This document shows positions 36,373 to 43,868 of a stretch of DNA of 64,000 nt, piece after piece; the first letter of the stretch is position 1; every line of letters begins with the position of its first letter. The DNA comes from Agromyces cerinus (GTDB lineage Bacteria > Actinomycetota > Actinomycetes > Actinomycetales > Microbacteriaceae). The stretch covers positions 1,674,001 to 1,738,000 of the forward strand of contig NZ_JAFBCT010000001.1 of the NCBI RefSeq assembly GCF_016907835.1, given 5' to 3'. Both the position numbers and the translations under genes were made by a program. The notes beneath the pieces were generated by a model. The model had not been told where the DNA came from, did no database searches, and worked only from the letters and a program-made list of their open reading frames with translations.

Positions 36373-36412
36373 TTCTGGTCGGGCTGACGGGATCTGAACC
36401 TGAGACCCCTTG
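36373..36412 (-). repeat. Degenerate copy of the tRNA-Pro 3' end (outer att remnant)
   Basis: About 40 bases match the 3' part of the tRNA-Pro gene at 43792-43868 in the same orientation, from the CCA end through the T arm, with three or four mismatches. The 5' half of the tRNA is absent. With 37152-37191 it looks like an attachment site left by an integration event. Confidence 0.75.
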
Positions 36413-36524
36413 GAGGATCCGGGCCGCTGCCTGATTCGGATTCACGCGCAGTCCTCGCATTAGTCGGGCATGCGAAGGTCGCGGCCTGACGTGGGTGACC
36501 GGTTCGGCGCTCCCGTCACCACTG

Positions 36525-36914
36525 TCACCTGGCTGCGACGTTGAGTTCCACGGCCTCAGCTACGAGCGCCTTGACCGCCGCTTCGTCCACGCGGTCTCCA
36601 TCGAAGTAGTCGATGGCTCGAACGACTTTGCTGTCCAGCCGGGTGTTGAAGAGATCGCTGCTTTCCATGCGGGCACCCTTCGCGAACGTCAGCCTTACAG
36701 CGCTCTTGAGCACGTCGACGAAGCAGACGTCTCCGTCATGCGTCCAAAACGGAACTCCCTCCGGTTTAGAGGGCTTCTTGTACTTGACCGCCTCGACGGC
36801 AGCCGGGTCGGCGGCCATGATCGCAGCTCGAAGCGCGACGAGCACGTCCTGCTTCCAGCCGCTCTGCTGCGCGATGATGTCGTCGATCTGCTCGGAATCG
36901 GACTTGTCACTCAT
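36525..36914 (-). CDS. DUF1801 domain protein
   Basis: A 129-residue protein of the DUF1801 (YdhG-like) family: QSGWKQDVLVALRAAIMAADPAAVEAVKYKKPS followed by GVPFWTHDGDVCFVDVLKSAVRLTFAKGA, both diagnostic. ATG 36914 is the start; no good ribosome site is seen. The family is widespread and of unknown function. It is the only gene between the two att-like repeats, so it may be cargo of a small element. Confidence 0.85.
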   Translation of the reverse strand: MSDKSDSEQIDDIIAQQSGWKQDVLVALRAAIMAADPAAVEAVKYKKPSKPEGVPFWTHDGDVCFVDVLKSAVRLTFAKGARMESSDLFNTRLDSKVVRAIDYFDGDRVDEAAVKALVAEAVELNVAAR

Positions 36915-37120
36915 GCGCGAATACTTGCGAAGAGAGCTGGCGAAGTCAACAGCCGAAGTCGGTCGCCAACAGGCGTGGCAGGCTCCCACACCGACGGACC
37001 GCGTCGGCCTTGTGCGGAGATCGGCGTACTGCGTCAGCGCGCCCATTGGATCGCTGCGTGGACCCGAGCACTGCAAGATCGACGCTCGGCATGAGAGGAT
37101 CAGTCTCTCTTAACCGCAGA

Positions 37121-37150
37121 AGTCCCGGAAACCCTCAGGTTTCCGGGACT
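37121..37150 (-). terminator. Hairpin beside the inner att copy
   Basis: AGTCCCGGAAACC and GGTTTCCGGGACT form a perfect 13-base stem with a CTCA loop. It lies directly downstream of the tRNA-Pro 3' copy, in the place a tRNA terminator would occupy; the outer copy keeps only half of this stem. Confidence 0.6.
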
Positions 37151-37151
37151 T

Positions 37152-37191
37152 TCTGGTCGGGCTGACAGGATTTGAACCTACGACCCCTTGA
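37152..37191 (-). repeat. Near-perfect copy of the tRNA-Pro 3' end (inner att)
   Basis: Forty bases match the intact tRNA-Pro gene at 43792 with a single difference in the T arm, and then diverge. The tRNA 5' half is missing, so this is not a functional tRNA. Together with the intact gene it brackets the 6.6-kb low-GC segment, as attL/attR would. Confidence 0.85.
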
Positions 37192-37408
37192 AGGCTGCAG
37201 CCTTAACTCGGTTTTCACCGAATGTCTCCGAAAACTTGCGGATTCCCTTGTGTTTACAGGGAACCGGGCGGTTCGCTAACTCCGATTCTACCCGGTCGTC
37301 GGGGGTCTCTCACGGGTCAATCTGATGGGTAAATGATGGGAAGCCGATGCCCGCCGTATCGTCGCCACCGCCAAACCGAACTCCCATCAGGCGTCACAAG
37401 GGAATCCC

Positions 37409-41771: not shown

Positions 41772-42551
41772 GTGGACCTGACGAGAAAACTCGAACTCCT
41801 CGACCAACAGATATCCGATGCCAACGGCGGCTATCCTGAGGATTTCGATAAGTGGTTGAAGCGAACAGACGTGGTCGTCCGCCAGATCTTCGGCGACGAC
41901 AGTCCCATGTACAGGAGCTTCACCGCAATCGCGTTCGGTCCGTCGATTTGGTTTGACGGGATGGATACAAGCGGATATCAGCCTGCTGGAGTCACCGAGA
42001 CCGTCGCCCTTCTCGAAGCCGCCAAGCTTGAAGTCGAAATCTCGGAAGAAGCTTCAGAGAGACCTATTCCCGCAGCGGATCAATCAGAGGCGTCAGATCG
42101 GGTCTTCATAGTTCATGGCCAGGATGATGCTCGCAAGTTTGAGCTTTCATCCTTCTTGCAGAATCTGACGGGCGCGCAGCCAGTAATCCTGCACCAGCAG
42201 GCCAACAAGGGGCAGGTGTTGATCGAAAAGTTCGAGTCAAGCGCTGCATCCGTTGGATTTGCAGTGGTCCTCCTGACCGGTGACGACGTTGGACGTCCGA
42301 AGTCTCTCGATCCTGAGGACGATCAGTCGCGTGCACGCCAGAACGTCGTGTTCGAGATGGGGTTCTTCTTTGGTTTGCTCGGACGGACGCGAGTCGCGGT
42401 CCTATACGACGATGGGGTTGAACTTCCGAGCGATATCAACGGAATCGTATACATCCCGATCGACCCGGCGGGCGGCTGGAAGTCCAAGCTCGCGGTTGAG
42501 CTGGACGGGGTCGACATCAGCGTCGACTGGTCGGCCATCGGTCGCAGCTAG
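41772..42551 (+). CDS. TIR-like nucleotide-binding protein (CAP12/Pycsar TIR type)
   Basis: A 259-residue protein with an unassigned N-terminal domain (1-105) and a C-terminal TIR-like domain: VFIVHGQDDARKFELSSFL (111-129), the segment LIEKFESSAASVGFAVVLLTGDD with candidate catalytic Glu152/154, and RARQNVVFEMGFFFGLLGR (188-205). Such domains degrade NAD+ in CBASS, Pycsar and Thoeris anti-phage systems. No cyclase or cNMP-binding domain gene is adjacent. Starts at GTG 41772 or 41763. Composition is AT-richer than neighbours, consistent with transfer. Confidence 0.85.
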   Translation: MDLTRKLELLDQQISDANGGYPEDFDKWLKRTDVVVRQIFGDDSPMYRSFTAIAFGPSIWFDGMDTSGYQPAGVTETVALLEAAKLEVEISEEASERPIPAADQSEASDRVFIVHGQDDARKFELSSFLQNLTGAQPVILHQQANKGQVLIEKFESSAASVGFAVVLLTGDDVGRPKSLDPEDDQSRARQNVVFEMGFFFGLLGRTRVAVLYDDGVELPSDINGIVYIPIDPAGGWKSKLAVELDGVDISVDWSAIGRS

Positions 42552-42628
42552 TCGCTTCCAACCCACCGCAGCCAGTCCCGCGGCTTTCCTTCTGCGATAG
42601 CGAAAGGCGCTGGGATAGTGACAGGCGG

Positions 42629-43123
42629 CTACTCGGGGTCGCTCTGAACGAGGCTCTCGCCTTCAACGGCCTCTCTCCAGAGACTTACCGACCGTGAACT
42701 CTCCACCTCCTGCGATGTAGCGGCTTCAAACGGATCACCAATCGCTACAACGCTCTCTCGCTCTGCAATCGGAGCAGGTTCACCCGCACCTCGCCGAAGG
42801 GTTTCCACCTGCCTTACATACTTCGGCGGGCTCATAAGCGAGCCAAGAAGGTTGTTCCCAGTTCCTCCAACGTTGACTTCGTGCGAGCGGAAGGTCTGGG
42901 CGACCGTGAGGTGCTCCGCCACCTCAGCAGCTTTCAAGACGATCTTGATCCTCGAGATTGAGCCAAGTATGTTGCCCGTCTCTGGATCGGTGATGTCGAC
43001 GGTTCTCGGATCAAGCACTTTGAAGAACATCCCGGGCTCCACACCGTCTGCGACTCCCCGGTTGAGAATTACTTCCCGGTCGCTGACGATCTGCGCAACT
43101 TGGCCACGAATTGCCTTTGCCAA
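42629..43123 (-). CDS. FlgT-C-like island protein
   Basis: A 164-residue protein with TTG start 43123 directly after the stop of the upstream gene (TAATTG). The N-terminal half (GQVAQIVSDREVILNRGVADGVEPGMFFKV) resembles the small barrel domain at the C-terminus of FlgT and related proteins, followed by DPETGNILGSI. The C-terminal part is polar. No flagellar genes are present. It is coupled to the membrane protein upstream and may form a complex with it. Function unknown. Confidence 0.65.
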   Translation of the reverse strand: MAKAIRGQVAQIVSDREVILNRGVADGVEPGMFFKVLDPRTVDITDPETGNILGSISRIKIVLKAAEVAEHLTVAQTFRSHEVNVGGTGNNLLGSLMSPPKYVRQVETLRRGAGEPAPIAERESVVAIGDPFEAATSQEVESSRSVSLWREAVEGESLVQSDPE

Positions 43124-43675
43124 TTACTTCTCAACTCCTAGCCTTCGAGCCAGCTCGGCTCGCTCCTTGATCTGGGTCAGAACGCGTTCAGTTACGCCTG
43201 GCTCGATTTTGTCCCATTCACTCACTGAATTGACCAGCTGAGCGAGTGTTCTGTCGAGCTCGGATTGAACCACTTGCAGGCCCATACGAACTTGATTCAA
43301 TTCTCCACTCTCCATCAGCTGCGCCACGGCGGTGCGGGAACTCGCAACCGAGCGTGTGGTATCCGCGAGCGATGAGACTGCAAACTCAGCGTGAGTCTTG
43401 TTGCTTGGGGTTTCAGGCATCGGTTGGAGGACGAGCCCCAAGAGCGCACCTGCGACCAAGTAGGCGGCGGAGCTGATCCACGCTGGAGCGCCAGCGGGGA
43501 GAATCGCTACCACTAGAACGGTTACAACAACCACGACAACCGCGCCGAGGAACTTCCAGCCGAGGGGTATGAAGAACCGTCCGACCCTCAACGAGAAGCG
43601 CGGGGTGCCGGTAGCCTCAGGACTCTCACTGACGACGGGTGCCGATGCAGCTTCAGGCGGCGAAGCCTCTGTCAT
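43124..43675 (-). CDS. Two-span membrane protein with coiled-coil tail
   Basis: A 183-residue protein: a low-complexity N-terminus, two membrane spans (about 42-60 and 65-85), then a helical, probably coiled-coil cytoplasmic region (SLADTTRSVASSRTAVAQLMES onward). No family is recognised. GAGGC stands before the start at 43675. Its stop touches the TTG start of the FlgT-C-like gene. The pair is the first transcription unit inside the island next to tRNA-Pro. Confidence 0.6.
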   Translation of the reverse strand: MTEASPPEAASAPVVSESPEATGTPRFSLRVGRFFIPLGWKFLGAVVVVVVTVLVVAILPAGAPAWISSAAYLVAGALLGLVLQPMPETPSNKTHAEFAVSSLADTTRSVASSRTAVAQLMESGELNQVRMGLQVVQSELDRTLAQLVNSVSEWDKIEPGVTERVLTQIKERAELARRLGVEK

Positions 43676-43751
43676 TCACACATCATGGCAGAAATCACCG
43701 ATGCTCTCGCTTAAGGAGGGCTTTCGGAGGGGTTGGGCATTCCAGACATGA

Positions 43752-43790
43752 AGAAGGCCCCGGCGGATCTTGCGATCTACCGGGGCTTCT
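43752..43790 (-). terminator. Terminator of tRNA-Pro
   Basis: An imperfect stem pairs AGAAGCCCCGG with CCGGGGCCTTCT (read on the minus strand) immediately after the tRNA 3' end, followed by TTCTTC. Confidence 0.65.
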
Positions 43791-43791
43791 C

Positions 43792-43868
43792 TGGTCGGGC
43801 TGACAGGATTTGAACCTGCGACCCCTTGACCCCCAGTCAAGTGCGCTACCAAGCTGCGCCACAGCCCG
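43792..43868 (-). tRNA. tRNA-Pro (anticodon GGG), CCA encoded
   Basis: The minus strand folds as a complete cloverleaf: acceptor stem CGGGCTG with CAGCCCG, D arm GCGCAGCTTGGTAGCGC, anticodon arm CTTGA-CTGGGGG-TCAAG with anticodon GGG, T arm with GGTTCAAATCC, discriminator A and an encoded CCA. It reads proline codon CCC. Its 3' end is the integration target of the island to its left. Confidence 0.97.

Follow-up and report, generated by a model that had tools for sequence, protein, structure and literature searches.

Nested integration at a tRNA-Pro(GGG) gene of Agromyces cerinus, with an inner island that reads as a fusion of two elements

We analysed a 64,000-nucleotide stretch of the Agromyces cerinus genome (contig NZ_JAFBCT010000001.1, positions 1,674,001 to 1,738,000), hereafter the window, and in it the segment adjoining its only tRNA gene, tRNA-Pro(GGG), as found by ARAGORN. 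With a probability of about 0.82, this segment records nested site-specific integration at the tRNA gene, with an inner island (37152-43791, 6.64 kb) fused from two elements, A2 and B. By sequence comparison, types A and B represent two separate lineages of tyrosine integrases, both of which use this tRNA in genomes across the Microbacteriaceae. The preliminary description of the locus had proposed two successive integrations at the same site. Nested integration is borne out by an empty site in a relative (G021), by full-length elements in other relatives and by composition, whereas the number of layers was probably understated, because the inner island reads as a two-element fusion and because G021 and another relative, G052, keep a further outer copy of the attachment site (att).

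Results

Partial copies of the tRNA 3' end and the empty site

The target gene and its two partial copies are as follows.
43792..43868, minus strand: intact tRNA-Pro(GGG), the integration target (ARAGORN); its 3' part is the att core
37152..37191, plus strand: att copy C2, attR (far end) of the inner island; 39/40 to the tRNA 3' end; G021 has its intact tRNA here
36374..36413, plus strand: att copy C1, far end of the element that reads as collapsed, A1; 36/40 to the tRNA 3' end

The att query was the 40-mer at 43790-43829, which is the tRNA 3' end, compared with both strands of the 64 kb. The repeat at 37152 shows the single difference claimed for it; the other copy, previously put at 36373 with three to four differences, is real, starts at 36374 and differs at four positions. 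The next best place in the window, on either strand, scores only 24/40, so a chance origin of C1 and C2 is not reasonable. As had been described, both copies lie in the orientation of the tRNA 3' end and lack the tRNA 5' half, and their flanks (36350-36416 and 37128-37194) are 82% alike, including a common GACTTTC. Of the hairpins next to the two copies, that at 37152 is intact and that at 36374 damaged. Elsewhere in the genome, full-length matches to tRNA-Pro(GGG) reach 74-83%, the most similar (83%) being tRNA-Pro(CGG).

For comparison, stretches of at most 20 kb on the downstream side of tRNA-Pro were collected from 59 relatives, of which 58 belong to the same genus and one to another genus of the family (G051 was omitted); some of these stretches are short because contigs end. 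In G021, window positions 36463-37191 (93%) and 43780-44660 (89%) map to one contiguous stretch with a 49-base overlap at the att core, and the left flank joins an intact tRNA directly; the site of 37152-43791 is thus empty in G021. Nothing in the 20-kb stretch of G021 matches the island interior (37193-43780) at 1e-5. Instead of both partial copies, this island-free relative has only the 36374-type copy (37/40, 785 bases from its tRNA, with an intact hairpin), and its intact tRNA stands at the place of 37152. It follows that the inner island came after the older copy or was cleanly lost from G021.

The interior is AT-richer than its surroundings, as had been noticed: in a windowed check its guanine-plus-cytosine (GC) content is 0.591 at 41446-43789, 0.613 at 37192-41445 and 0.623 at 36414-37151, compared with 0.692 to the left and 0.698 to the right of the segment, and the lowest outside value among 271 windows of 2344 bases is 0.653. 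In tetranucleotide composition, the two larger parts lie beyond the range spanned by windows of their size, whereas the 738-bp part (36414-37151) lies within the range for its own. The marks of a tRNA-integrated island are therefore present in the form of foreign GC content, direct repeats (C1 and C2) and, for the inner island, absence from a relative with an intact empty site.

Arm types and the proposed fusion junction

We typed the arms next to the att cores with small profiles, built from 7 relatives for type A and from nine arms for type B; G040 was too short and was omitted. The arms and the two truncated genes are the following.
37060..37151, minus strand: type A attL arm of the older, collapsed A1, outer flank of the 37152 copy (hairpin 37121-37150); type A profile 45.1 bits, type B 7.5 bits
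37192..37342, plus strand: type A distal arm of the inner island; matches those of G018 and G042 at 91% (118-119 bases) and that of a type A element in G295 at 77%
43715..43789, minus strand: type B attL arm, the tRNA flank of the window, with a terminator-like hairpin and a tandem 8-mer of 11-bp period; type B profile 46.7 bits, no match to type A
41443..41745 (about), plus strand: 3' fragment of a type B tyrosine integrase; PF00589 at 9.9e-09 on the chimeric frame 41299-41745, C-terminal part only
41076..41444, minus strand: PIN-like gene without about 29 first residues, including a conserved LLDNN-type motif; four relatives carry the missing N-terminus
41442..41448, no strand: fusion junction between two head-to-head genes, both cut at the 5' end

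The two ends of the inner island therefore differ in type. The truncated integrase reported earlier is indeed present, and it belongs to a lineage other than the one behind the outer copies: it is 80% identical to a 393-residue relative (P0004) over residues 298-381 of the latter. A type A origin of the fragment was rejected, since at E 1e-3 its only matches among the open reading frames of the fetched loci were itself and two weak relatives, none of type A, and its lineage was later found to be type B. The neighbouring gene has no Pfam match at 0.01 and is labelled PIN-like by eye. Its four relatives start about 36 residues before the annotated start in the window, where homology extends about 8 codons upstream of that start, to about 41444; here the PIN-like homology ends and the integrase homology begins (about 41443-41446).

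The inner island thus reads as a fusion of a type B and a type A element, because two head-to-head genes cut at one point, between differently typed ends, are the expected trace of a deletion across the B/A boundary. A single event would account for the junction, a step that we infer, given that no relative examined shows the unfused pair with this cargo.

Three further interpretations of the flanks were discarded. The hairpin flank of 37152 is not native chromosomal sequence, since it accompanies type A integrase genes across species and in another genus. The tRNA flank of the window resembles that of G020 and had been considered native for this reason; both score as type B arms. Period-11 arm repeats were rejected as a marker of type B only, since 7/8 is reached by 9 of 10 type B flanks (the window included) and also by 10 of 59 others, several of them type A.

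Type A elements and the putatively collapsed element A1

A further att copy of at least 29/40 is found in 14 of the 59 relatives, the weakest being that of G052 at 29, which is doubtful on its own. The frequent layout of type A runs from the tRNA through a hairpin and about 450 bases (with a small helix-turn-helix gene in G019) to a tyrosine integrase of 397-402 amino acids pointing to the tRNA, then to cargo, a conserved distal arm and the att copy. A type A arm stands at the tRNA in 20 of 58 relatives, namely the 7 profile builders and 13 of 51 others at 28 bits or more; within the stretch, the type A integrase is intact in six of the 20 and broken in one. At the same tRNA, G013 and G018 carry type A elements of 7.9 and 7.6 kb, respectively, with an intact 397-residue integrase and the same distal arm.

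The last gene of these two elements encodes a DUF1801 protein, whose counterpart in the window lies between C1 and C2.
36525..36914, minus strand: DUF1801 gene, last surviving gene of A1; PF08818; 98% amino acid identity to the last gene of G013 and G018

On the att side of the gene, 36414-36560 matches the corresponding sequence of G013 and G018 at 87% over 143 bases, and G021 has the same collapsed form as the window. The segment 36374-37151 accordingly reads, on these resemblances, as a type A element reduced to its two ends and last gene.

In the family, a type A integrase match at E 1e-60 or better occurs in 46 of 299 genomes. We fetched 30 of these loci with about 1.5 kb on each side: 13 contain tRNA-Pro(GGG), three tRNA-Met(CAT), one tRNA-Ser and one tRNA-Lys, and 12 have no tRNA in the stretch. 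The integrases that adjoin tRNA-Met(CAT) (L201, L209 and L215) are type A-like with 58-67% identity, a possible change of target within the lineage. A second type A distal arm lies on a contig of G049 other than that of its tRNA-Pro (L153, contig C2, about 6800-6930); L152 and L153 served as BLAST subjects only, and L154 was left out.

The type B lineage and stacking at the same tRNA

Matches to the integrase fragment at E 1e-6 occur in 59 of the 299 family genomes, the nearest in G295 (83%), G389 (76%), G227 (69%) and G194 (54%). In each of these four genomes the fetched stretch contains tRNA-Pro(GGG), and the type B integrase is convergent to this tRNA. A scan of named genomes gave 31 type B loci, from which the nine nearest were taken (L217-L225, at least 43%); the rest reach at most 37%, except L245 with a short 44% match. 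Seven of the nine contain tRNA-Pro(GGG), L218 contains tRNA-Thr, and L223 has no tRNA and an att remnant of 35/40. After removal of the overlap between the samples, tRNA-Pro(GGG) lies within the fetched stretch at 8 of 10 distinct loci and one locus is near tRNA-Thr; the integrase of which the window holds a fragment only may likewise have targeted tRNA-Pro. The locus near tRNA-Thr (L218, Microbacterium indicum, 10001-11968) combines a type B integrase of 77% likeness with TIR cargo and may represent another change of target. Among named sequences, the closest relatives of the integrase, and also those of the PD-T7-1 homologue described below, come in many cases from Microbacterium or other Microbacteriaceae. 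A shorter type B remnant (31 of 41 residues) lies about 27 kb from tRNA-Pro in G042; a hairpin match beyond it was set aside as a generic terminator.

The intact type B integrase has about 393 residues (P0004). Of 11 type B integrases examined, counting that of the window, 9 start no earlier than residue 81; L217 is complete, and L223 shows a gap in its interior. The scan patterns sit in the C-terminal half, so that 3'-truncated forms would be missed, and in the more distant L225 the start may be unrecognised and not lost. Many intact forms of about 390-398 residues exist, largely in metagenomes and other isolates, which speaks against a general rule of 5' loss.

In Mycetocola miduiensis (G295, L183 5034-14178), att sequences stand at three places, the tRNA's own included (38, 37 and 38 of 40). 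Outward from the tRNA follow a partial type A integrase (residues 126-396 matched), a 258-residue type B integrase and an intact type A integrase. This order of A, B and A is therefore a direct view, from another genus, of the two lineages stacked at this tRNA.

Cargo genes

The inner island carries the following genes besides the two truncated ones.
37409..37801, minus strand: hypothetical protein of 130 residues; open frame only, no family match
37851..38273, plus strand: nuclease-like protein of 140 residues; weak PADLOC mREase_II match (1.5e-04), motif by eye
38347..39735, plus strand: PD-T7-1 homologue (predicted anti-phage), cargo of the A2 remnant; PADLOC PD-T7-1 at 5.3e-143
39913..40854, plus strand: DUF5677-like protein; PF18928 at 6e-05, below the cut-off
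41763..42551, plus strand: CAP12/PCTIR-type TIR protein (PDC-S35, a PADLOC candidate), carried by the type B remnant; PF10137 at 9.5e-37, PDC-S35 at 8.1e-85
42629..43123, minus strand: protein of 164 residues, adjoining the 183-residue gene; weak PHROG match only
43124..43675, minus strand: protein of 183 residues, membrane-type by eye; no family match of weight

The PD-T7-1 homologue is full length (residues 11-449 align to 2-448 of 452) and has relatives of up to 79-82%. The PD-T7-1 system was reportedly discovered by functional selection in Escherichia coli (PMC9519451). The TIR protein matches the solved Cap12 and PycTIR weakly in sequence. A nucleotide cyclase, the partner of a TIR effector in the cyclic-oligonucleotide-based anti-phage signalling system or the pyrimidine cyclase system for anti-phage resistance (CBASS and Pycsar), gave no family match among the 10 island proteins scanned, and a literature search on PDC-S35 gave no paper. 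The two adjacent genes between the TIR gene and the tRNA (42629-43675) are possible TIR partners.

In type B loci, the slot between integrase and tRNA varies in content, and a defence-type match was obtained in 6 of 8 scanned loci (L219 and L220 were left out): TIR in L218, L223 and L225, PDC-S56 in L222, a Stk2/PD-T4-6-like protein kinase in L224, and a methyltransferase with an EcoRI-like nuclease in G227. The slots of L217 and L221 gave no defence-type match.

At type A sites we scanned 10 cargo proteins from six genomes, hand-picked mostly by size and hence not an unbiased sample. Five match PADLOC models: JetA and JetC of Wadjet (G054), IetA (G031), QatA (G019) and a caspase with a CHAT domain (G059). 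The other five lack a PADLOC match (both proteins of G018, both of G013 and one of G031, a DUF6414 protein); by Pfam, the two proteins of G018 are Schlafen AlbA_2, one below the cut-off. Many other genes of type A elements look metabolic or have no recognisable role. The Wadjet-type genes of G054 (L101, 1407-8383) lie between type A ends, and no integrase was found there. Overall, defence-type genes are frequent among the cargo examined (in the window, the PD-T7-1 and TIR homologues), with functions predicted from family matches.

Present mobility

Four PF00589 matches occur in the genome: the fragment itself, one at 53890-54396 of the window (frame 53836-54915, XerD-like by eye, beside a ParA-like gene), and proteins of 386 and 441 residues, the latter with a tRNA-Arg nearby. 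None is a type A integrase at E 1e-60, none of the four being close (best 29% over 168 residues), and at E 1e-6 the type B lineage is represented in the genome by nothing but the fragment. Because of this the fused island is probably now fixed. As in cis-mobilizable elements (CIMEs), which retain attL and attR and carry no genes for integration or transfer, both att sites are kept here and the integration genes are lost, only the 3' fragment remaining. A relaxase was found neither among the island proteins nor among 10 + 10 cargo proteins of other elements by Pfam, a scan that covered part of the genes.

It is unlikely, though not negligibly so, that the island still moves, being excised as a unit at attL (B) and C2 (A) by a type A or B integrase that acts in trans or is brought in by an incoming element. 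In favour of this, the att cores that bound the island agree at 39/40 and the arms are retained; a review also describes the transfer of composite tandems with integrase-less elements (PMC5704250). Against it stand the different types of the island ends and the finding of no type A integrase, and of only the type B fragment, in this genome.

A possible further outer layer

Beyond C1, an alignment break marks one more site.
32961..32962, no strand: place of a further outer att copy kept by G021 (31/40) and G052 (29/40) and absent in the window

In the two relatives, this copy (that of G052 weak on its own) lies just past a block with GH3, thymidine kinase and acetyltransferase genes, and the window has a plain junction without an att copy at 32961/32962. 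The composition of the block is native (GC 0.689), so it may be old or no island at all. Opposite this junction, G021 (L062, 12918-14342) has a 474-residue gene with PolyA_pol and HD domains together with the outer copy.

Discussion

The history we propose starts from integrases of lineages A and B whose attachment site would be the tRNA-Pro(GGG) gene at its 3' end. With every integration, DNA of the element would restore this end, supplying arm repeats and a terminator-like hairpin that replaces the old one, and the previous 3' end would be displaced outward as a partial copy. A1 would have been the earliest arrival and would later have shrunk to about 780 bp that surround its last gene (DUF1801); then A2, with PD-T7-1, and after it B, with TIR, would have arrived. 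A deletion that started within the B integrase and reached the 5' end of a gene in A2 would have removed the intervening att site and the A2 integrase, fusing B and A2 into one 6.64-kb island with its junction at about 41445, which keeps mainly likely anti-phage cargo.

Several observations weigh against this reading. One of the nine type B arms, L219, misfits the type B profile in leave-one-out and two others reach only 10-14 bits, while three type B arms score 12-15 bits with the type A profile. The arms of G020 and G055 score as type B, and no type B integrase was found there; the 11-bp arm repeats occur in both types. An unfused B and A2 pair with this cargo was seen in no relative, and in 59 other genomes of the genus no nucleotide match to the inner island exceeds 364 bases. 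The outer flank of the 36374 copy is too damaged for the type A profile (-1.4 bits), and its assignment follows from its 82% likeness to the 37152 flank and from G021. The DUF1801 gene also lies away from tRNA-Pro in five genomes (G009, G015, G027, G030 and G059; 91-94% DNA identity) and is therefore not diagnostic alone.

The simpler account of only two integrations, with the inner island a single-lineage element whose integrase decayed, fits the fact that the window shows the tRNA end and two further att copies and no internal att boundary. We consider it improbable, because the arms at the two ends differ in type, the lineage of the integrase fragment fits one end only, and two genes are cut at one point. 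Although other routes can duplicate tRNA fragments, nothing of weight favours partial copies that arose by chance or duplication without integration, and this origin is in practice refuted by the empty site of G021, by integrases that adjoin the same tRNA in relatives and by arms conserved across genera.

Nested integration with fusion of A2 and B has parallels in described systems. Tandem accretion with decay is already known (PMC5704250). That account shares with our locus a decayed element that keeps its att sites, later integration at the same site, and tandem integrases of similar specificity and distant kinship; it differs in that here one internal att is lost, two elements seem fused, and the cargo proteins scanned include no relaxase. 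The ssrA-specific islands of Dehalococcoides (PMC3146451) likewise place many islands with different cargo at one RNA gene, some with a constant integration module, whereas here the target is tRNA-Pro, the two tyrosine-integrase lineages have opposite layouts, and the cargo includes defence-type genes. The defence-carrying mobile elements of E. coli (PMC10121019) also occupy hotspots with varied anti-phage cargo; ours are small, actinobacterial and arranged in arrays of remnants. Island CGI48 of Shewanella putrefaciens (PMC8978831) is a composite island at a tRNA gene too, but the gene is tRNA-Trp and CGI48 carries an island whose relatives use another target, while here two neighbours with the same target seem fused by loss of their boundary. 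A literature search for the present elements gave no apparent treatment among the matches listed, judged from the beginnings of their abstracts.

Beyond this locus, we suggest only tentatively a broader picture, in which two integrase lineages with opposite layouts would make tRNA-Pro(GGG) an exchange slot throughout the Microbacteriaceae. Type B elements would be near-minimal cassettes, with one defence module between integrase and tRNA; the integrase, mostly cut at the 5' end in the genomes examined, would be lost while the module stays, so that a defence gene is repeatedly locked in and later elements stack and fuse.

Taken together, the order of events can be read at one tRNA, from a single element through collapse and later arrivals to fusion, and most of these stages are represented in one genome or another. 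The kind of process is well known, but its layered history is unusually clear here. The elements form a small group in actinobacteria whose cargo slot could be mined for new anti-phage genes, and they allow one to ask whether loss of the integrase with retention of the defence gene is a repeated, selected outcome.

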